Shown: one piece after another, positions 31,521-42,170 of the stretch
Position numbering within the stretch: the first letter of the stretch is position 1
Layout of the letters: each line of letters opens with the position of its first letter
DNA from: a bacterium
Lineage (GTDB): Bacteria > Planctomycetota > Planctomycetia > Planctomycetales > Planctomycetaceae
Length of the DNA stretch: 64,000 nucleotides
Direction of reading: 5' to 3'
Assembly (NCBI GenBank): GCA_016125225.1
Contig: WGME01000004.1
Span: 372,001-436,000, forward strand
Notes under the pieces: model-generated
The model's input: only the letters and a program-made list of their open reading frames with translations
Told to the model about the DNA's origin: nothing
Databases searched by the model: none
Translations under genes and position numbers: made by a program

Positions 31521-32894
31521 ATGTGGGATTATTTCCGCGACAAGTGGCGCACGGCCCGACTCAAAGCCCGCTATCAACGACTCGTTCAGGAACAGGTCCT
31601 GGAACTGATCGAAGAGCGGGCCAGCCAGACCTTGTCGGAAGAGCCGGGTCAATGGTCGCTGCTGGGTGGTGGCAAGTCGACCGTCGATGCCCTGGAACGA
31701 GGTGAGATCCGCCAGCAGTCGCGGCAACTCGTTCAGACCAACCCTTATGCCCGCAACATTCTGCGGCTGCTGGAAGTCTATGTGACGGGGCCGGGTCTGC
31801 GCGTTTCGGCGATGCCCGTCCATCCCGATCACGCCGATGTCGAGTTGCTGCGCAAGTGCGATCGGCTGTGGAAGGAATTTCTCCGGCACAACCGCCGCCA
31901 TTTCACGTTCAGCGAAACCGCCCGCCGAACCTGGCGTGATGGGGAATGCTTTGTGCGGTTGTTCTCCCAAGCGGAATGGCCGCCGAGTGTGCGGTATGTC
32001 GATCCGGAAATGATTGCGGCGAGCACTGAGCATCCCGATTCGGAAGGTCTCATCACCGAGCCACAGGATATCGAATCGATCGTCGCCTATCTGCATAAAG
32101 ATACCAGTACCGGCGAACTGCTCGAAGCCATTCCCGCAGAGGAGATGCTGCATCTCAAGATCAATGCCGATTCCAACGAACGCCGTGGTGTTTCCATCTT
32201 CGCGTCGATTCTCGATTCTCTTGCTTACTTTGAGAAATGGCTCGATACCGAATTGCAGGCCCGTAAGCTGCAATCGTCGATTGTCCTCTGGCGGAAAGTT
32301 CAAGGCGGACCGAGTCAGGTAACGGCCACGGCTGAAGCGGCGGCTTCTTCCAACAGCACCGATCCCTATGGCTCCGTGCGACGGGAACGGTATCGACCGG
32401 GAACCATCCTCACGACCTCTCACAGTACCGACCTGCAGTTCTTGCAACCCAATACCAACTTTGGCGACGCCGTGCCCTTGGGGCGTCTCGTGCTGTTGGG
32501 GATTGCTGCCGGTGCCGGTGTCCCCGAATTCATGTTGAGCAGCGATGCTTCGAATTCAAATTATTCCTCGACCATGGTGGCTGAAGGTCCGGCCGTGAAG
32601 TTGTTCGAAAGTGAGCAATATTTCTTCGCCCGGGAACTCGAACCGTTGTGGGAATGGGTGCTGCAGGAAGCCGCCGCCTTCGGACTTCTGCCCACGGACG
32701 TGCTTGATCAAGTCACGCCGCACTGGACCTTCCCGCAACTGGTCAATCGCGATCGGGCTAAAGAACGGCAGGTCGATGCACAGCTGGTGAAGGCCGAGAT
32801 CCTGAGCCGGGCCGAAGTCGCACGGAGGGACAACGTCGATCCGCACGTCATGGCCGCCGAGATCGCGCAGGAAGCGGCAACCGACGCTGACTGA
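31521..32894 (+). CDS. Phage portal protein (lambda-like)
   Basis: 457 aa; SRQLVQTNPYARNILRLLEVYVTGPGLRV and C-terminal portal features; first gene of a phage-like same-strand cassette. Confidence 0.88.
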   Translation: MWDYFRDKWRTARLKARYQRLVQEQVLELIEERASQTLSEEPGQWSLLGGGKSTVDALERGEIRQQSRQLVQTNPYARNILRLLEVYVTGPGLRVSAMPVHPDHADVELLRKCDRLWKEFLRHNRRHFTFSETARRTWRDGECFVRLFSQAEWPPSVRYVDPEMIAASTEHPDSEGLITEPQDIESIVAYLHKDTSTGELLEAIPAEEMLHLKINADSNERRGVSIFASILDSLAYFEKWLDTELQARKLQSSIVLWRKVQGGPSQVTATAEAAASSNSTDPYGSVRRERYRPGTILTTSHSTDLQFLQPNTNFGDAVPLGRLVLLGIAAGAGVPEFMLSSDASNSNYSSTMVAEGPAVKLFESEQYFFARELEPLWEWVLQEAAAFGLLPTDVLDQVTPHWTFPQLVNRDRAKERQVDAQLVKAEILSRAEVARRDNVDPHVMAAEIAQEAATDAD

Positions 32895-32938
32895 CGAATT
32901 CTCCTTTCATCCTTCCGCCTTCCTCCTTGGAACATCCC

Positions 32939-33310
32939 ATGTCGCGCTTGCTATGGCTGGCGTTTGAACGGCCGCCACATCCTGATGCCGTGTGCCATCC
33001 GGCGACCATGGACGATGTGCTGCTGATTCTTGAATGGCTCGAATCCGCGGAATCCCGGCGCGTGCATCTGTCGGAACAGCTGCGGGGGTATCTCGCCCAA
33101 CAGCACGACATCACGCCGTGGTCTCGACCGGCGGTTCCGTGTCGCCGTGAATCGGGGTTGTATGCCCTGGTTCCCTGGCGAATGGCGAAGTGGCTGTCGC
33201 ATGTGCTTCCCGCTTCGCCCGGCGTGATCGAGCGCACCCGTCGGCAACTGGAACGCTGGCTGCAAACCACATCTTCGTCCCCCATCGTTAACCCGGCCTT
33301 CTCATCCTGA
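32939..33310 (+). CDS. Hypothetical protein in phage-like cassette
   Basis: Conserved position between portal and protease; stop overlaps next ORF start. Confidence 0.6.
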   Translation: MSRLLWLAFERPPHPDAVCHPATMDDVLLILEWLESAESRRVHLSEQLRGYLAQQHDITPWSRPAVPCRRESGLYALVPWRMAKWLSHVLPASPGVIERTRRQLERWLQTTSSSPIVNPAFSS

Positions 33311-33354
33311 TGCCTTTCCTGCGCAACACTTTCTCATGGTTAAGGAGTCCTTCA

Positions 33355-34467
33355 ATGACCATGTCGTCACCCTCGATCGACTGCGAACCCTTAACGGAAC
33401 ATATCCGCGACTGGCGGACCACTGACCTGAAGGTCGATTCCCAAGCCCGGCGGGTGCAGAACCTGGTGCTTTGTGGAGCCCATTCGCGGAATGGTTACCG
33501 CTATTCCACCGAGGCCATGCAGGCCGCCGCGACTCTCTACGAACGGAAGCCGGTCTTTCTGGATCATGCGGCCAATACCTCGCGGCCGTATGAACGCAGC
33601 ACGCGTGATCTCGTTGGCATGGTACAGAACGCCCGCTATGACGCCGAACATATTCTCGGCGACATTCAGGTTCTGGATACCGAAGCCGGTCGCACTTTTC
33701 TAGCGTTGTTGGCTGCCGAGAATTCGCCCGTTGGCTTGAGTCATGTCGTCCTGGCGCAACGCGGCCCGCAATCGCAACTGGTCGAGAAGATTCACGACGT
33801 GGTGAGTGTCGATGCCGTGGTCTTTCCGGCGACCACACGCGGTTGGCGAGAAAGTACCGAGGCCCTGTGGCCGGGATCGTGGGAAGCCGTTGTCGAGCAG
33901 ATCGATGCCTTGCTACCGGCCCATCTCAGTCAGCTTGATCCCTCGCAAGAGCGCAGCGTTCGCCGGGTGGCGGTTTTCGGCACATCATTGATTATCGAGC
34001 AGACTTCAGCTGAGGGAACTCCGTCGCAGTGTGCCGAACTCTCCTGGTCCCTGAGTCCGCAGGGCGTCGTGCTGGGAGACGAATTGCGGCCCGTAGACCC
34101 AACGGATTTACGCACTCAGGCCTCGATCGGTGAGCTGCACGAGCAACTGAGGAGCACTCGCGCCGAAGTTCAACGACTCGAGAAATGTCTGCGAGAGCAA
34201 CACGACGCCGAGCAGTTGGAGGCTCTGCTCTCCGCCGCACATCTCCCAGCCTTCGCGATGACTGATGCCTTTCGCCAGCAACTGGCTACCAGCCCCGATG
34301 CGGATCGTCGTCGGCAGTTGATCACCGAACGTCAGCAGCTCATTGAGCGGGCGATGCGACCAGCCGTGGCGAGTCGTGCGCGTCTCGTTCCCAGTAGTTC
34401 AGGCGATGGGGATTTCGTGCGGGCCGTGCGGGGAATCCGCGGCGGTGTTCTGTGCGGCCAGGCCTAG
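33355..34467 (+). CDS. Prohead/capsid maturation serine protease-like
   Basis: RRVQNLVLCGAHSRNGYRYS...PVFLDHA...AENSPVGLSHVVL pattern plus Gln/Arg-rich coiled-coil C-terminus (scaffold-like). Confidence 0.65.
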   Translation: MTMSSPSIDCEPLTEHIRDWRTTDLKVDSQARRVQNLVLCGAHSRNGYRYSTEAMQAAATLYERKPVFLDHAANTSRPYERSTRDLVGMVQNARYDAEHILGDIQVLDTEAGRTFLALLAAENSPVGLSHVVLAQRGPQSQLVEKIHDVVSVDAVVFPATTRGWRESTEALWPGSWEAVVEQIDALLPAHLSQLDPSQERSVRRVAVFGTSLIIEQTSAEGTPSQCAELSWSLSPQGVVLGDELRPVDPTDLRTQASIGELHEQLRSTRAEVQRLEKCLREQHDAEQLEALLSAAHLPAFAMTDAFRQQLATSPDADRRRQLITERQQLIERAMRPAVASRARLVPSSSGDGDFVRAVRGIRGGVLCGQA

Positions 34468-34520
34468 GGGCCTCGTTGCCTCGTCCGCTTATTCCTCTTC
34501 TTTCTGAAAGGTCATGTTCC

Positions 34521-35003
34521 ATGTCCAATCGTCTGCGTTTTCGCAGTGGTCAGGTCGAACTGCACAAAGTGCGTGTCAACAGCGATACCGTGCTGGAAGC
34601 TGGTGACCTGGTTTATCTCGATACCGATGATGTCAAACCGGCGAGCGAGTTCGCCTTCGACACCGATCTCGCAACCACCCGGAGTAACTTTGCCGCTGTC
34701 TTTCTAGGGGTGTGTCATCAAGCCTCGGCGGATGGCGAGACCGCCGATGTCTCGGTCGATTTGAGTCCGCTGGCGGTTTATGAGTTCGATGTCGACGCCG
34801 ACACGTTTGAACTCGGCAACAAACTGGCCTGCGATGGTGACTCCGATGGCCTGGCCGCCCAGCAGCTCGCCAAGGTGACCAATGCTGCCCATGCCATCGC
34901 CCGGGCCAGCGAGTTCAAAGCGACCGCGGCGTCTCTGCTCCGCGTGCAGTTCGCCTCGGCGTTTCATGCGGCATCGGCCAACGTGAACGCCGCCATCGGG
35001 TAG
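34521..35003 (+). CDS. Putative capsid decoration-like protein
   Basis: 160 aa immediately upstream of the capsid gene; ATG 34521 with AAAGG upstream. Confidence 0.5.
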   Translation: MSNRLRFRSGQVELHKVRVNSDTVLEAGDLVYLDTDDVKPASEFAFDTDLATTRSNFAAVFLGVCHQASADGETADVSVDLSPLAVYEFDVDADTFELGNKLACDGDSDGLAAQQLAKVTNAAHAIARASEFKATAASLLRVQFASAFHAASANVNAAIG

Positions 35004-35059
35004 GCCGCACGCTCCATCAGTTTTCAAGTTTCGACATTCGCACATCAAAGGAATTGTCC

Positions 35060-36259
35060 ATGCAAGGCAGTAGCCTCAAACATCTGGTGGAGTCGCTCGG
35101 AGCCGAGGGCTTCTACCACAAACTCTGTACGTTGCTCAACGAGCAGCAGTTGTCGGTCGATGACTTCAGTTACTACGAACTCGCCGAAGCCTGTGGTGTG
35201 CTGCCACAGTTGCGACGGCTGCGGGAATGGTCGGCCGATGGCACGCCGGTAACCGCGCTGCTGCGGGAATCGAACCCCGGCGTAAATACCAGCCTGTTCC
35301 AGGTGGTGACGGGCGAACTCATCGGTCGCAAGGTGATCGAGGGGTACGAAGACAAATCGGGCTTCATTGGCGACAAACTCGTCACCGTGATGCCCAGCCG
35401 TGTCCGCAACACGAAAATCGCCGGCTTTCGAGCATTGTCGGGACCGTCCGAAGTCCATGAAGGGCATCCGTACGAAGAGTCAACTTTTGAGGAAAAGTAC
35501 GTTGCCACCTCGGAAACCAAGCAGGGGCGGGTCCTCTCCATCAATGAAGAGTTGATCGCGTTCGATCAAACGGGTGAGATCAACCGCCGAGCACGAGCGC
35601 TCGGATTCTATCTGCGGCAGGAACGGGAGCGGACCATTGTCCGCGCGGTGACCGACGCCGATGCTGCTGCGGGCAAATACGTCTATCGCCCCAGCGGTCA
35701 GGGCACCGCGCTCTATGCGATCGATGGTTCCCATCGCAACTGGATCGGGGCCGGGAACACGACTTCCGAGGATTTTGATGCCGCCGTTCCGCTCGTTGAT
35801 TGGACCGATATCGACACGGCCCTCAACTATCGGGCGACCGAAGTCAAAGATGACCGCATCGACGGCACGGCAAGGCCGATCATGGCACCGGTCAAACAGA
35901 TCCTGGTACCCGAACGGCTCCGTGGCACGGCTCGCAGCATCATTCATTCGACCGAAATCACCGTCTCCGATGGTGACCAGGAAACGCGATTTGCGAATCC
36001 CGTTCAGGGGTTGGTCGAAGTGCTGAGTTCACCCTTCATTGATGAGCAGGGCGGGCAAGCCATCAATGACTGGTACATCGGCGACTTCCAGAAGCAGTTC
36101 CTGTGGACCGAAATCTGGCCGGTGCAGACCTTCCTGCAACGGGCCGACAGCGATGCCGCTTTCGATCGTGATGTCGTGCTGCGGGTGAAAGTGCGGTACT
36201 ACGGCGGCGTATCGGCGGTGGATACCGTCTTCGTCACCAAAGTGGATGGGGCCGCGTAG
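35060..36259 (+). CDS. Phage major capsid-like protein
   Basis: About 400 aa, position after protease/decoration genes, capsid-like composition (ESTFEEKYVATSETKQGRVLSINEELIAFDQTGEINRRARALG). Confidence 0.7.
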   Translation: MQGSSLKHLVESLGAEGFYHKLCTLLNEQQLSVDDFSYYELAEACGVLPQLRRLREWSADGTPVTALLRESNPGVNTSLFQVVTGELIGRKVIEGYEDKSGFIGDKLVTVMPSRVRNTKIAGFRALSGPSEVHEGHPYEESTFEEKYVATSETKQGRVLSINEELIAFDQTGEINRRARALGFYLRQERERTIVRAVTDADAAAGKYVYRPSGQGTALYAIDGSHRNWIGAGNTTSEDFDAAVPLVDWTDIDTALNYRATEVKDDRIDGTARPIMAPVKQILVPERLRGTARSIIHSTEITVSDGDQETRFANPVQGLVEVLSSPFIDEQGGQAINDWYIGDFQKQFLWTEIWPVQTFLQRADSDAAFDRDVVLRVKVRYYGGVSAVDTVFVTKVDGAA

Positions 36260-36334
36260 TCACGTGGCGTCCTTCGAGCCGCGGGGGCCATTTCCCCGCG
36301 GTTTTCTTCCACCTCATTCACAGGTCGATGGATT

Positions 36335-36622
36335 ATGGCGGATTTGACATCGCTCGACAGCATCGCAGGGCAACCGCTATCGGAAGCTCAGATTCGGGGC
36401 ATCCTCGCGCAGATCGACCTCGACATCACCAACCTGCTGCGGGATGGCAAGCTCGCTGCGGTGAAGTATGCCGTCGGTTCCAACATCGGTCCCAGCGCCG
36501 ATCGGGCGGCTAATCTCAAGGCCTTGCTCGAAGCCCGTCAGCACTATGAAACGTTGCTCACGGCTTTCCCGGCCTGGGAAGTCTCGCAGGGTGTCGATGA
36601 TTCCCCTTTCACTCCGGAGTAA
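36335..36622 (+). CDS. Small phage-like hypothetical protein (connector/gpW-like candidate)
   Basis: 95 aa, LLEARQHYETLLTA, follows capsid gene. Confidence 0.55.
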   Translation: MADLTSLDSIAGQPLSEAQIRGILAQIDLDITNLLRDGKLAAVKYAVGSNIGPSADRAANLKALLEARQHYETLLTAFPAWEVSQGVDDSPFTPE

Positions 36623-36625
36623 CCC

Positions 36626-36847
36626 ATGGACGACAAACTCGATCGCGTCCTGGAGTCGTTGCAGCAGGTGGCCGTGAGCGTCGAAAGCCTACGAGTCTCG
36701 CTCAATCGGCTGATTGATGTCACCGAGGATCATGAACAACGACTACGGCGACTGGAAACCTGGCGGAACAACCTCACGCCGGTGATTGCCGTGAGCACGT
36801 TTGTGTTGGGTTCGCTCTTCAACGCGTTCCTGCATCGACTGCAGTAG
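36626..36847 (+). CDS. Small coiled-coil protein with C-terminal TM (XhlA-like architecture)
   Basis: MDDKLDRVLESLQQVAVSVESLRVSLNRL...WRNNLTPVIAVSTFVLGSLFNAFL. Confidence 0.6.
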   Translation: MDDKLDRVLESLQQVAVSVESLRVSLNRLIDVTEDHEQRLRRLETWRNNLTPVIAVSTFVLGSLFNAFLHRLQ

Positions 36848-36942
36848 TGGTCGATGGTTGAAAAGCCGCCACCGCCGAGTGGCGGGTTTATGATTTCGTC
36901 GATGGACCGTCCAGTCATCAGCAGCCAAATTGGAGACAACTC

Positions 36943-37299
36943 GTGATCCCAGACCGCTCGGAAGAACTTTCACTGGCGTTGGCAGACTGGGGCGTCACGA
37001 TCACGCATCTGGCCGTCACTGCCGCGTTTGATGCCGAAACGCAAACGGTATCGGAAACCACCGCCACGACCGAGTTGCTCGCCATCCTGGGACCGCTCGA
37101 ATCGAAAGTCCACGCATCTCTACCAGGCCAGCAACAACGGCAACAGCGATCCCTGCTTGTCCGTTCTACCGATTGGCCTGAGATCGATGCTGGCGTCACC
37201 CGCCGCGTGATCATTGAGGACGTGAGTTACGACATCATCGAGATCCTCGTTTCGGAAGCCGCTGGTTGGCTGCGAGTCACCGGTGTCCGCCGCGATTGA
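36943..37299 (+). CDS. Putative head-tail connector protein
   Basis: 118 aa, position in cassette; no motif proof. Confidence 0.5.
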   Translation: MIPDRSEELSLALADWGVTITHLAVTAAFDAETQTVSETTATTELLAILGPLESKVHASLPGQQQRQQRSLLVRSTDWPEIDAGVTRRVIIEDVSYDIIEILVSEAAGWLRVTGVRRD

Positions 37300-37322
37300 A
37301 CCCACTCAGCATAGGCTCGGAA

Positions 37323-37763
37323 ATGACCACGATCACTTTGTCACAAATCTCCGGATCACTTTGCCGGGCCTGGTCGGCAGCGATGGGCACCACCCCCCCG
37401 ACGATATATCCCCAGATGTTCGCCAACACCGACCAATGGTCGACCTGGTATGAACTGATCATCGAGTCCTGGACACCCCGTTGGCCGCGTGCTGGTGACC
37501 CCGTGCAAGGGTCCATTGATGTGAGAGTGACCGTCTGTGCCAAGCCTACGATCACGGCCGCACAGGTGACTGCGCTCTTGGAACAAGCCCGCTTGGTCTT
37601 CAGTGGGCAGGCCATCGCCGTCCGCAGTTCTTCCAGTGATCCCATCGTTGGCCGAGTTCGTTTCCAGGACGCGGTAGTCCAGAACCAATCCGAGAAAACG
37701 GCTCATCCCGGCGGACAACTCTGGCAACTGCAATGGACCGGCAACGTGCTGGCGGAACAGTGA
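37323..37763 (+). CDS. Putative tail-terminator-like protein
   Basis: ORF 37266..37763, probable ATG 37323 (MTTITLSQISGSLCRAW); size and position fit. Confidence 0.5.
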   Translation: MTTITLSQISGSLCRAWSAAMGTTPPTIYPQMFANTDQWSTWYELIIESWTPRWPRAGDPVQGSIDVRVTVCAKPTITAAQVTALLEQARLVFSGQAIAVRSSSSDPIVGRVRFQDAVVQNQSEKTAHPGGQLWQLQWTGNVLAEQ

Positions 37764-37765
37764 TT

Positions 37766-37890
37766 GGCTAAGGGTTCAGGGCTGAGTGCTAAGGGCTAAA
37801 CAGATACAGCGGAAGGCGTAAAGCAAAAAGCGGAAAGCCAGACTTGAGATTTTGGTATCCCGCCTTTGCTCTCAACTCTCAACCATCGAC
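37766..37890. repeat. Composite spacer A: GGCTAAGGGTTCAGGG ... AACTCTCAACCATCGAC
   Basis: Both end blocks recur exactly in the spacer at 47423-47532. Confidence 0.75.
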
Positions 37891-37916
37891 TCTTAACTTT
37901 CCAGCGAGCCAACATC

Positions 37917-38366
37917 ATGCCCTTCACTTTCCGACCGGCAATTGTGCGTGGCGAGACGTTGTACGAACTGCCGCGGCCATTGCCTCAATTGAAGCTCGTC
38001 GATACCTGGGACAGCGAAGGCTTCAAAGTTCCCTTGCGTGACGGCGAAACCCGGCAGAGGCATTCTCGCAATGGCGTGGTGATCACCTTGTCCGGGGATG
38101 TGTTGAGTCATGATGGGACTTTGCAACTCGATGAACAGGCCATGTTCGAAACGCTCGAAGGCCTGCGGGCGGCGTTGCACGTCGGCGGTGAGACCGAACG
38201 CTATCGGCTCTATCTTTATTTCGATGCCGCGACTGAAACGTATCGCCACTTCCGCGACTGTTCGACATTGAAATTCGAATACGACCTTAGCGATGCCACG
38301 CGGTTCCGCTATGAACTGCAGATTCATGCGGAAGATCCGCAGCTTTATACGACCGGGCTGGAGTAA
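37917..38366 (+). CDS. Putative phage tail component
   Basis: 150 aa; FKVPLRDGETRQRHSRNGVVITLSGDV reminiscent of distal-tail proteins; cassette position. Confidence 0.5.
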   Translation: MPFTFRPAIVRGETLYELPRPLPQLKLVDTWDSEGFKVPLRDGETRQRHSRNGVVITLSGDVLSHDGTLQLDEQAMFETLEGLRAALHVGGETERYRLYLYFDAATETYRHFRDCSTLKFEYDLSDATRFRYELQIHAEDPQLYTTGLE

Positions 38367-38413
38367 GCCAACTCGCGTTTCGCTCGCCCCCTTCCGCATA
38401 CGGACCAATCATC

Positions 38414-39934
38414 ATGGCCTATCAACGTCGCCTGCTCCGTTATGGTCCCTCGCCGGATGAACTGCTGGAATCGCTGGATGAGCGGGCCATTGCCGGTTGT
38501 CGATTTACCCTCGAACGTGTTGGCGGTTGCGGTGCGGGGCAATTGAAGTTGCGTGATGCTTTTGCCGATCGTGCGGCGTTGACCGTCGGAACCTGGATTG
38601 CCTGCGAGTATGCCGATGGGGATCGCTGGTATCTGGGCCAGATTGTGGAACGGGTCACCCAGAGTCCGGCGGGGATCACGTTGCAACTGGCGGGTCTGTC
38701 GCAACAGTTGCAGCAGGTCTTTCCCGGGGGATTCGGTGTCGACAGTGATGATCCGCCGCATCGGTATGCGCTCACCGATTTGTTTTCCGAAGATCCCGAT
38801 CGTGCTCTGGAAACACTTGATGTGGTCGAACGTCCGGAAGACATCGTGCGGCTGCTGCTGTCGCAGTATGTCGTCTCGGCGACCAGCATCACCTATGTGC
38901 CGGAACTTGTGGAGAATGCCGACGTCATGGCCGATGTCGCCAGCTTGAAGTTTTATGGCGAAGAGTCGGTCAGTTCGATTCTCAAAGACCTGGCCTTGCG
39001 GGTGCAGCACGCTGCGTGGGGTGTGAATGAAGCGGGTCAATTTTACTTTCTGCCGGAACGCAGCACGCTGCTGATGACGTGCCAGGAAAGCGTGGATGCG
39101 GTCGAACTCCGTGAGTCAGTGTCTCACGATCAAATCTTCAATCGTGTGCTGCTCACCGGTGGCTACATTTATGGTCCGCTCGGCACCGCCCGCTGGCGTG
39201 CCAATTATCGGCAACCGGCGAGCATCGCGACGTATGGGGAACGTCGCATCAAAATCTGGGTCCCTTGGATTCGAACCAGCGAAGACTCACAGCAATTCGT
39301 GCGGGAATTCTTCGATGTCTATGCCCAGCCCACCAATCATTTCCGAGTGACGATCGCAAATCCGACGACCTGCCCTTGGCCCTGGTTGGGATGCGTGCGG
39401 CTGCTGGATAGTGAGAGCAATGAACTGATCACCGCTCAACCAGAACGTGTCATCGTGGAGTTCGACCACACCCCTGTGCTTACATTTGAACTCGGGCCGG
39501 ATGATCCCCGCAAACTCTGGCCGTCGCCGCCGCATGAAGAACGCTATCCACGTGAACGGTTATCAGAATTTGATCTCACTGACCCACCGAGCGACTTCGG
39601 TTCTTCCAGCGATGATGAGAGCAGTGGTCTCACCAGCACCGCCAGTTCTTCTTCGGACGACATGACAACTTCGAGCGGATCGTGGTCCAGCAGTGAAGCA
39701 GGTTCCGATGCAGGATCGTCTGCCGCCAGCTCCTCGGCTGCTGAGTCCGATTCCGGAAGTGATTCGTCACTGGTTTCGTCGAGCATGCTGATATCGGACG
39801 CATCAAGTTCCGACATGAGTTTCGATAGCGATTCGTCGTCTGAACTGCCGCCACCGTGGTCGGGACCCGGTTCGAGTGGAGGAGGCGGGAGTGGAAGCGG
39901 CGGCAGCGGTTGGTCGGGGACGGGATCGCTCTAG
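38414..39934 (+). CDS. Putative tail hub-like protein with Ser/Asp/Gly-rich C-terminal tail
   Basis: 506 aa; N-terminal two-thirds globular (SVSSILKDLALRVQHAAWGVNEAGQFYFLPE), final ~110 aa low complexity S/D/G. Confidence 0.55.
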   Translation: MAYQRRLLRYGPSPDELLESLDERAIAGCRFTLERVGGCGAGQLKLRDAFADRAALTVGTWIACEYADGDRWYLGQIVERVTQSPAGITLQLAGLSQQLQQVFPGGFGVDSDDPPHRYALTDLFSEDPDRALETLDVVERPEDIVRLLLSQYVVSATSITYVPELVENADVMADVASLKFYGEESVSSILKDLALRVQHAAWGVNEAGQFYFLPERSTLLMTCQESVDAVELRESVSHDQIFNRVLLTGGYIYGPLGTARWRANYRQPASIATYGERRIKIWVPWIRTSEDSQQFVREFFDVYAQPTNHFRVTIANPTTCPWPWLGCVRLLDSESNELITAQPERVIVEFDHTPVLTFELGPDDPRKLWPSPPHEERYPRERLSEFDLTDPPSDFGSSSDDESSGLTSTASSSSDDMTTSSGSWSSSEAGSDAGSSAASSSAAESDSGSDSSLVSSSMLISDASSSDMSFDSDSSSELPPPWSGPGSSGGGGSGSGGSGWSGTGSL

Positions 39935-39966
39935 CTGAGGGTTTCACAAATCAGATCGATCAAGAC

Positions 39967-39990
39967 GCCCAGGGATAGCGATCCCTGGGC
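39967..39990. terminator. Intergenic hairpin GCCCAGGGATAGCGATCCCTGGGC
   Basis: 23/24 identical to 23969-23992; follows the tail-hub-like CDS. Confidence 0.7.
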
Positions 39991-40023
39991 TTCAGACGCG
40001 GGTTGATCGACAGTATCAATCTG

Positions 40024-41175
40024 ATGTCTGAGTCAACGACAACACGCCGAACGGGGATGACATCGATGACATCCGCTACTCAAGATTCGCCGCTGTTCTA
40101 TCGCTTGGATACCGACCAGCATGTGCAGCCGATGCCTCTCGAGGATCTATATGGCGGGCCGCAAGCCTCGACGTGCTGGCTGATTGGTGGCGGACCGTCG
40201 CTCTGCGAGTTGCCCTGTGAGGAGATCGCCCGCAGTCCGATTCCCAAGATGACAATTAACTTGAGCGGCACGGGGTTATTGCGGCCAAACTTCTGGACGT
40301 CATACGATCCCACGGCACGGTTTCATCGATCGATCTATCTCGATCCCGGCATCCTCAAGTTTGTGCATCGTCGCCGGTCAATGGACCTGGTGCCTGAGAC
40401 AACTTTCAAAGTGTGTGAATGCCCGGGTGTGATCTTTTTCGATCGTCATGACGGCCGTGATTTTTCGACGTTCCTCAGTCCCAATGCTCCGGGCATCATC
40501 GACTGGGCCGACTCCATGGTGCAGGCGATCGATCTGCTTTACCGGCTCGGTTTTCGCAAAATCTATCTCGCGGGTTGCGAACTGCGGGTGCGGCCGCCGG
40601 CAGAGTTATGGCAGCAGGCGTTGGAGCGCAAGATCCCGGTTGAACCGTGGGGCTTGCTCGGTGAGTTCTTCAAGGCGTGTGAAACTCATGGCCTATGGTC
40701 GGAAGAAACAGCCGCAACCAAGGACCTTGCCATCTATCACTTCGATGAATCGAAATCGCTGCGAGCGGCTGTGCAGACCGATCAGCATTACTATCGGATC
40801 ACGCAATGCCTGCGGTTAGCACGGCGAAATCTGACACAGCATGGTTTGCAGTTGATTTCGGTGACACCGGAAAGCCGGCTGAACGATTACTTTCCGTATC
40901 AGCCCGTCGCGGAAGTCCTTGACGAGATGCGATTGCGAGTTGGTGATGCGGGACAGGAACCGACCCGGGGATTGTATTCGCAGCAAGCGTCCAGGGCTCC
41001 CGCGCTCTTAGGGCCGATGCGGGATGTCAAGCCGCCCAACTGGTCGGCGGCCCCTTCTCCGTTGAAACCCGGAAAGCCGGACGATGCACCGCAATTACTG
41101 GTCGAAGCCGAAGGCTGGATCGCGGCAGGGCATCGCTTTCAGGATGCGTATCGTACGCCGCAAGAGGTCGGTTGA
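40024..41175 (+). CDS. Protein with GGGPSL motif, DUF115/Maf-like (sugar-related) candidate
   Basis: CWLIGGGPSLCELPCEEIARSPIPKMTINLSGTGLLRPNFWTSYDP; SMVQAIDLLYRLGFRKIYLAGCEL. Confidence 0.5.
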   Translation: MSESTTTRRTGMTSMTSATQDSPLFYRLDTDQHVQPMPLEDLYGGPQASTCWLIGGGPSLCELPCEEIARSPIPKMTINLSGTGLLRPNFWTSYDPTARFHRSIYLDPGILKFVHRRRSMDLVPETTFKVCECPGVIFFDRHDGRDFSTFLSPNAPGIIDWADSMVQAIDLLYRLGFRKIYLAGCELRVRPPAELWQQALERKIPVEPWGLLGEFFKACETHGLWSEETAATKDLAIYHFDESKSLRAAVQTDQHYYRITQCLRLARRNLTQHGLQLISVTPESRLNDYFPYQPVAEVLDEMRLRVGDAGQEPTRGLYSQQASRAPALLGPMRDVKPPNWSAAPSPLKPGKPDDAPQLLVEAEGWIAAGHRFQDAYRTPQEVG

Positions 41176-41198
41176 CGTCGGCGATTGGAACGCGATTC

Positions 41199-42170
41199 AT
41201 GAAACCACGTCTGTTGCAGATTGCGAATGTCGGGCAGATTTGCGGTGGCACGGCGGCTTGTGCCTGGACAGTGACGCAGGCCTTGCCGGGCTTCGATCAT
41301 CACGTGGCCTTTCTCAGCTCGATTCACGCTGACACCCGGCGAGTCTTTGTGGATGCAACGTTGCATGCCTGGACAACGGTGACATTAAACCTTGTGCGAT
41401 CGGTCTGTCCGGATGTTGTACTGCTGCATAACATCTCGCCGCAGAAGCTGAATCAGCGGTTGCCGATTCCGACCGTGCAATACGTCCATTCTGCAGGAAG
41501 GAAAGCGGAAGCCGATGTCACGGTCTACTGTTCTCACTGGCTGGCTCAGCAATTTGAGGCTGATAGCGATGATGTGCTCTGGCAGGGGGTGCCGTTGGTC
41601 AATGTCGCGCGAACATCTGCCACAGATCGCCCATTGATTATCGGCCGCATCTGCACGCCCCAGTTATGCAAGTGGCCGATGGAGCTGATCGCGTTCTATG
41701 AAACATTGTCGCCGGTAGCTCCGGAGGTGTGGTGGGAATTCGTCGGCTGTCCGTCCGAATTGCAGGCTGGGCTCAAGCAAGCCTGTGGGGGGCGGGCTCG
41801 ATTCTTTCCCGCGGGATGGGAACAGCGTCAGTTTTTGGGATGCTGGGACGCCTTGCTGTATCACCATCCGACCTTGCCGGAATCGTTTGGCCGCGTGGTG
41901 GCCGAGGCCATGCGTGCCGGTTGTATTCCCATTGTCGATCATATGGGCGGCTTCCGTGAGCAGTTGAGGGAAGGGGGCGGATTCCTCTGCCGAGACCTGA
42001 GTGACTTTCAGCAGGCCATGATACAACTCCGCGATCCGTCACTGCGCAAAACGCTGTCGCAACAAACGCTACAAATTGGTGAATCACGCTGGTCTCTGGA
42101 TCGATTCGCAAAAGCTCTGCTGACCAGACTGGATGCTGCTGTCGCCCACTTTTCACGTGCAGCTTCTTGA
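41199..42170 (+). CDS. GT-B type glycosyltransferase (family 4-like)
   Basis: IGRICTPQLCKWPMELI...LLYHHPTLPESFGRVVAEAMRAGCIPIVDHMGGFREQL. Confidence 0.85.
   Translation: MKPRLLQIANVGQICGGTAACAWTVTQALPGFDHHVAFLSSIHADTRRVFVDATLHAWTTVTLNLVRSVCPDVVLLHNISPQKLNQRLPIPTVQYVHSAGRKAEADVTVYCSHWLAQQFEADSDDVLWQGVPLVNVARTSATDRPLIIGRICTPQLCKWPMELIAFYETLSPVAPEVWWEFVGCPSELQAGLKQACGGRARFFPAGWEQRQFLGCWDALLYHHPTLPESFGRVVAEAMRAGCIPIVDHMGGFREQLREGGGFLCRDLSDFQQAMIQLRDPSLRKTLSQQTLQIGESRWSLDRFAKALLTRLDAAVAHFSRAAS

Follow-up and report, generated by a model that had tools for sequence, protein, structure and literature searches.

Whether a run of phage-like structural genes with no terminase among them is a decaying prophage or a particle system kept by the cell is the question raised by a 64,000-nucleotide stretch of a 6.35 Mb planctomycete genome (G000:C37:372001-436000, the whole of which we call the window; G000 is the window's genome). 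Positions 31521-42170 of the window are filled by 13 intact open reading frames (ORFs), all on the + strand and free of internal stops, including genes for a portal, a capsid and a baseplate hub. An initial annotation had counted about 12 intact same-strand genes; their intactness, strand and coordinates stand, and the count becomes 13. We propose that this cassette is probably the head, connector and baseplate part of a domesticated, multi-locus particle system of Planctomycetia, derived from a tailed phage and resembling gene transfer agents (GTAs), with its packaging motor encoded at a second chromosomal locus.

The packaging module lies at a second locus

Among the ORFs of the 27-47 kb stretch of the window, none was seen to encode a terminase, an integrase, a tape measure or a tail tube, and family hidden Markov models (HMMs) run over the whole window detected no terminase, tape measure or tube. 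A profile of the large terminase (TerL), built from six genomes and searched in a panel of 29, found one strong orthologue in 27 of them, G000 included, where it lies at C5:48730-50208 (E=4.9e-238). The absence of TerL is thus a property of the locus and not of the genome: the description of the cassette as terminase-less holds where it was made and fails at the genome level, since the orthologue, which belongs to a conserved packaging module on C5, co-occurs with the capsid gene across genomes. This module consists of genes for a small terminase (TerS)-like protein, a ParB-like protein, an ABC-ATPase/GNAT and TerL, and is flanked by ClpP/trigger factor on one side and by ThiF/T2SSE genes on the other. 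At L119 10710-14750 (G000:C5:48709-52749), the ABC-ATPase and GNAT-domain ORFs overlap out of frame; G149, G162 and G003 have the two fused into a single protein. The GNAT domain is similar to the phage family phrog_886, and a role of the ABC-ATPase/GNAT in DNA modification or packaging control is possible.

The comparison took in twenty loci, ten of them complete or long and the other ten shorter. In G089, G149, G068, G043 and G162, the genes run in the order TerS-like, ParB-like, ABC-ATPase/GNAT, TerL, portal, (127-aa), protease, decoration, capsid. Four of the five continue after the capsid gene with F12, connectors, F15 (in three), the tail terminator, the tube F11, the tape measure F13, the Dit-like gene, the hub and glycosyltransferases; G162 misses the tube module. 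F15 matches Neck1 (3.5e-11). The F13 protein of G089 gave a match to tape measure families (phrog_3547, 1.4e-13) but is just 236 residues long. Elsewhere the portal stands alone (G005, G087, G157) or together with TerL (G095, G150, G003), and in the complete, one-contig genome G157 the capsid lies at 0.11 Mb, TerL at 3.51 Mb, the portal at 3.69 Mb and the tail at 3.71 Mb. Since both halves are fused in some relatives and split at differing joints in others, they are parts of one system that was dispersed lineage by lineage. A TerL or tape measure gene in adjacent sequence had been named in advance as a sign against domestication; both do adjoin the cassette in relatives, but as members of the one vertically inherited system, and the case for domestication gains from this. 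Apparent in-frame stops inside the portals of G162, G086, G150 and G151 proved to be natural C-terminal stops.

Distribution in the order, the class and phages

A synteny search across planctomycetes, suggested in the initial annotation, found the same gene order in some 40 further genomes of the order, with capsids 69-85% identical, and this conservation of the cassette is far beyond chance. Of the 170 genomes searched in the order, 59 gave a capsid match, which was strong in about 46 (identity of 58-85%, or a long fragment), with one orthologous copy per carrier; TerL was found in 50 of the 170 at E<1e-60. Both genes occur together in 43 genomes, the capsid only in 3 (which are 62-87% complete), TerL only in 7 and neither in 117, so that 43 of the 53 carriers have both (Fisher p=3e-29, uncorrected for shared ancestry). 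Single-copy orthologues occur in 35 of the 58 genera of the order, some matches being weak, and a strain-specific prophage is ruled out by the single copy and the 35 genera. No integrase accompanied the system wherever this was checked. Named carriers belong to Planctomycetaceae (Planctomicrobium, Thalassoglobus neptunius, Alienimonas chondri) and to Gemmatales. In G152, only a 24-residue C-terminal stretch of the capsid is left (G152:C58:75964-76035, 83% identity), while its two congeners have the full system; this remnant reflects either a recent loss or an assembly gap. G006, G051 and G052 have TerL and no capsid match, G006 also keeping the portal, which is explained either by assembly gaps or by a motor retained without its head.

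In the whole class, the capsid profile matches 114 of 398 genomes. Divergent loci (L219-L238), found in families f7, f9, f11, f14 and others, show the order ParB-ABC/GNAT-(TerS)-TerL-portal-protease-decoration-capsid; their TerL family (P5) and tail genes differ, and family HMMs gave no link to the window's type. The divergent versions are single-copy and occur in many families, and class-level capsid and portal sequences group largely by host family. All class versions may well form one old class-wide lineage.

Among 50,697 phage records, the capsid and the hub had zero matches, and the portal and TerL weak matches only, none of them close. One IMG/VR contig carries the whole cluster with 79% capsid identity; it groups inside the order and is probably chromosomal. 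The head genes of another (L178, IMGVR_UViG_3300044612_002560) branch just outside the order's clade, next to two upstream ORFs without a Pfam match; this contig may derive from a phage akin to the ancestor, or else be a piece of a chromosome.

Inheritance and selection

Inheritance was assessed by Mantel tests and trees on 21 genomes, with rpoB as host reference. Distances correlated with those of rpoB for TerL (0.64), portal (0.54) and capsid (0.62; p=0.001 each), and the concatenated tree had 8 of 18 splits in common with rpoB, whereas 5000 random trees had a mean of 0.2 and a maximum of 4. In the close pair G150/G151, values of dN/dS, calculated by NG86, were 0.02 for the capsid and did not exceed 0.23 in any gene tested; in genus g24 they were about 0.03 for the capsid and about 0.06-0.08 for the portal, with dS near saturation. 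The tested cassette genes are under strong purifying selection. The cassette had been judged domesticated and GTA-like rather than decaying. This is borne out by its single-copy orthologues, by dN/dS values well under 1, by the agreement with rpoB, by the scatter of the parts over several loci and by the lack of close phage relatives.

Gene content and setting of the cassette

The 13 genes are listed below, with lengths in amino acids (aa).

31521..32894, + strand: portal protein, lambda family, 457 aa (PF05136, E=1.5e-37; phrog_21, 5.5e-49)
32927..33310, + strand: 127-aa protein of family F18, between portal and protease, kept in part of the relatives
33310..34467, + strand: candidate head maturation protease, 385 aa (weak DUF2213, 0.006; phrog_12864, 0.002; position)
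34521..35003, + strand: decoration-like small head protein, about 160 aa, family F3 (by position)
35054..36259, + strand: major capsid protein, HK97-type, 401 aa (PF25209, E=1.2e-17)
36335..36622, + strand: connector-like protein, 95 aa, family F4, 55-76% conserved (position only)
36626..36847, + strand: coiled-coil protein, 73 aa, with a single hydrophobic segment at the C-terminus and a holin/XhlA-like shape
36943..37299, + strand: head-tail connector candidate, 118 aa, family F8 (position kept, 26-35% identity)
37266..37763, + strand: tail terminator candidate, likely ATG at 37323 (phrog_179 matches within the family)
37866..38366, + strand: Dit-like protein, 150 aa, family F6, likely ATG at 37917 (position)
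38414..39934, + strand: baseplate central hub, 506 aa (AlphaFold and Foldseek)
40003..41175, + strand: Rossmann/MptE-DUF115-like protein, candidate glycosyltransferase, 390 aa, family F10 (MptE-like 0.18, weak)
41172..42170, + strand: glycosyltransferase, group 1, family F17 (PF00534, E=5.7e-7), at the cluster end in relatives

The genes are separated by gaps of mostly 150 bp or less, with two overlaps. Their GC content (57-59%) does not set them apart in composition from the flanks (55-58%), which carry host genes of the NUDIX, ThuA, SIS/CBS and GDP-mannose-dehydratase types. A promoter scan found no sigma-70-like site, a result that is uninformative for this phylum.

The portal matches the lambda-type PF05136, PF04860 scoring below its cut-off, and its profile retrieved lambda portal B (8k38, E=2.3e-7) from PDB sequences; the same search with the capsid, TerL, tube, Dit-like, hub and terminator profiles gave nothing significant, nor did PHROG scans of the tube and Dit-like families. 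For the 127-aa protein, Pfam and PHROG scans returned nothing above noise. The protease candidate sits between portal and capsid in relatives too, and F3, whose likely ATG is at 34521 in an ORF that opens at 34452, lies directly upstream of the capsid in nearly all of them. The 73-aa protein matches phrog_5225, a family without assigned function (E=4.7e-7), and reaches a hydropathy of 1.68 at residue 51. In the terminator family, 5 of 13 members match the tail terminator family phrog_179 (best 1.1e-4), and F6, whose neighbours in full relatives are the tape measure and the hub, can be called Dit-like by its position. F10 comes after the hub in most relatives.

The hub fits no sequence family, and its identity comes from its fold. 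In the AlphaFold model, residues 10-370 mostly have a pLDDT >90, and Foldseek matched it to phage Mu gp44, hubs of contractile injection systems and T4 gp27 (E from 1e-16 to 1e-10). The fold check proposed in the initial annotation thus succeeded for the hub; the capsid model (pLDDT 42, 17 sequences) was too poor to use and was set aside before the fold search. The last 120 residues of the hub (about 390-506) are predicted to be disordered and are 44% Ser/Thr, and a Ser/Thr-rich tail is likewise present in most relatives.

Loss of the tail tube and candidate head-only lineages

Most compared carriers have a complete tail, including the tape measure. The tube is missing in 8 of the 21 compared genomes, which requires at least five changes on the rpoB tree, and a profile search found tube F11 absent genome-wide from G000, G003, G006, G064-067, G079, G081 and G162. 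In G000, G081 and G162, the Dit-like gene and the hub are kept, and F12, F15, tube and tape measure are missing from the loci compared (F12, F15 and the tape measure were not searched genome-wide). The initial annotation saw no tape measure in the window, and ORF reading and HMMs agree; we attribute this to repeated loss. The reduction goes further in genera g24 (four species) and g3 (two species, Alienimonas-like), where the hub is missing and the tested members have neither tube nor Dit-like gene genome-wide; both keep TerL, portal and capsid, that is, a motor plus a head with no detected tail. Unrelated genes could have replaced the lost tail genes. In our estimation it is unlikely, although conceivable, that g24 and g3 make a head without a tail, built from TerL, portal, protease, decoration and capsid only, that packages DNA and is still selected, species like the window's being intermediates that have lost the tube module and nothing else. 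If so, these heads would be a DNA-filling cellular capsid without an injection apparatus.

Proposed mechanism and alternative explanations

For this set of co-inherited, dispersed genes under purifying selection, we infer packaging and transfer of host DNA by particles. On a signal, capsid, protease, decoration and portal proteins would build a procapsid, and the separately encoded TerL would dock on the portal and fill the head with host chromosomal DNA, as there is no longer an element genome for it to recognise and package. Connectors and the baseplate hub would then be added to filled heads, and the hub with a short tail, where present, would deliver the DNA. The encoded glycosyltransferases may glycosylate the Ser/Thr-rich hub tail. 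Particles would leave the cell by lysis, possibly with the help of the 73-aa membrane protein. In full relatives, the particle would carry a short, siphovirus-like tail whose length is set by the 236-aa tape measure, and the particle of the window's species would be short-tailed or have an unrecognised tube.

Several observations weigh against this proposal. The strong capsid match in only 46 of 170 genomes means that the system is absent from most of the order, and it is also absent from G007, of the same genus as the window's genome, so that it must be dispensable. Gene trees match rpoB in part of the splits only, the conflicts falling mostly at weakly supported nodes. G000 has no tube by genome-wide profile and, at the searched loci, no tape measure, neck protein F15 or F12, and since the tube is lost, DNA delivery by the window's species is doubtful. 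Regulator and lysis genes were not identified. The small terminases of known GTAs are said to have no DNA-binding domain (PMC11841831), whereas the TerS-like F21 appears by eye to be helix-turn-helix-like. Finally, the system is known from its genes alone, not from particles, packaged DNA or transfer.

The loss of the tube while capsid, portal and TerL are kept would also suit a head-and-motor machine retained for packaging DNA inside the cell or on lysis, for storage, destruction or release and not for injection. This explanation, which we consider unlikely, draws on those five or more changes on the rpoB tree, on the lack of hub in g24 and g3, of tube and Dit-like gene in their tested members, and on the purifying selection on g24 head genes; it has to contend with the complete tail and tape measure of most compared carriers, and with the stand-ins that unrelated tail genes may provide. 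The same losses, together with the many genomes that have no system, the 24-residue remnant in G152 and the three genomes with TerL and no capsid match, could be read as a dying prophage or a GTA eroding stepwise, with no present function and its intact ORFs a snapshot before decay. The 13 intact ORFs, the dN/dS of 0.02-0.23 in the closest pair, the 69-85% identical orthologues across the order and the retention of both separated loci in single copy make such erosion improbable.

A capsid-derived, encapsulin-like protein nanocompartment without DNA would account for the capsid being the most conserved gene and for the two genera that keep mainly head genes. An encapsulin is, however, a shell without portal or terminase and with a dedicated cargo; here the portal gene is adjacent and TerL is retained, and every genome of the 29-genome panel in which the capsid was found has both. 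We consider this very improbable, and the nanocompartment option of the initial annotation is disfavoured in this species because portal, TerL, connectors and hub are all kept. Strongly disfavoured, and hardly credible to us, is a functional temperate phage or satellite with genes common in this order. The Caudoviricete proteins, the operon-like layout, a hub of an uncultured phage in BFVD with 27% identity and the related heads on the divergent IMG/VR contigs L178 and L179 would fit it. Against it, the integrase, replication and regulation genes that accompany the structural genes of a temperate prophage were not seen in the ORFs around the cassette (27-47 kb; att sites were not searched), the motor is on another contig, and the system has one copy per genome, is congruent with rpoB and has no strong match in the 50,697 phages. 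The domesticated, GTA-like particle system thus stays our preferred, and probable, explanation.

Comparison with known systems

The GTAs demonstrated by experiment belong to a small number of lineages, most of them in Alphaproteobacteria. A planctomycete version, class-wide and probably ancient, would add an independent domestication and offer a physical path for genes to move in a phylum from which few phages are known; its full, tube-less and head-only states would form a natural series in which to ask what selection retains. Some carriers are in culture (Thalassoglobus neptunius, Alienimonas chondri), which opens packaging to direct testing. Our searches of the open-access literature, which leaves out most subscription papers and bioRxiv preprints, found no description of a planctomycete GTA, and the system looks like an independent, previously undescribed GTA type.

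G000 also carries two prophage-like elements (the L120/L121 pair), one on C5 at about 5.9-23 kb with integrase, TerL, portal and head genes, the other at the start of C32 with portal, head and a 570-aa tape measure; the latter may be cut by the contig end. Together they share portal, TerL and capsid with the cassette system, but belong to other protein families that PHROGs recognise strongly. As the same methods detected them, ordinary prophages are findable here, and the cassette is unlike one. Encapsulins likewise have an HK97-type shell protein kept by the cell; unlike them, this system keeps portal, terminase, connectors and hub, and no cargo gene was identified.

Six features of GTAs (viriforms) have been listed (PMC9662315). 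Three are recognisable in the sequence: particle proteins derived from caudoviricetes (portal, capsid, TerL, tape measure, hub), full endogenisation over several loci (the TerL module on C5, the structural cassette on C37, the dispersal in G157) and mostly vertical inheritance with co-diversification with the host, the congruence being partial. Self-packaging of the element is unlikely since its genes are dispersed. The other three features (particles that carry mostly random host DNA, a head too small to hold the element's own genes, and delivery of the packaged DNA to other cells) need experiments, so we call the system GTA-like and do not file it as a GTA. By these features it is like RcGTA (Rhodogtaviriformidae), with caudoviricete-derived head and short-tail genes, several loci, vertical inheritance and no replication or integration genes found. 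It is set apart from RcGTA, by description and not by sequence comparison, by its phylum, its lambda-type PF05136 portal and PF25209 capsid, its ParB-like and ABC/GNAT packaging genes and the repeated loss of the tail tube.

FpGTA of Faecalibacterium, reported in 2026, has its GTA-like structural genes divided between two operons some 125 kb apart, and a podovirus-like particle (PMC12946183). Packaging was shown experimentally there, whereas the planctomycete system, read from genes only, is likened to it by description. Both are dispersed and outside Alphaproteobacteria, and the tube-less state of the window's species may be comparable to the podovirus-like particle; dispersal and short tails thus have a precedent.

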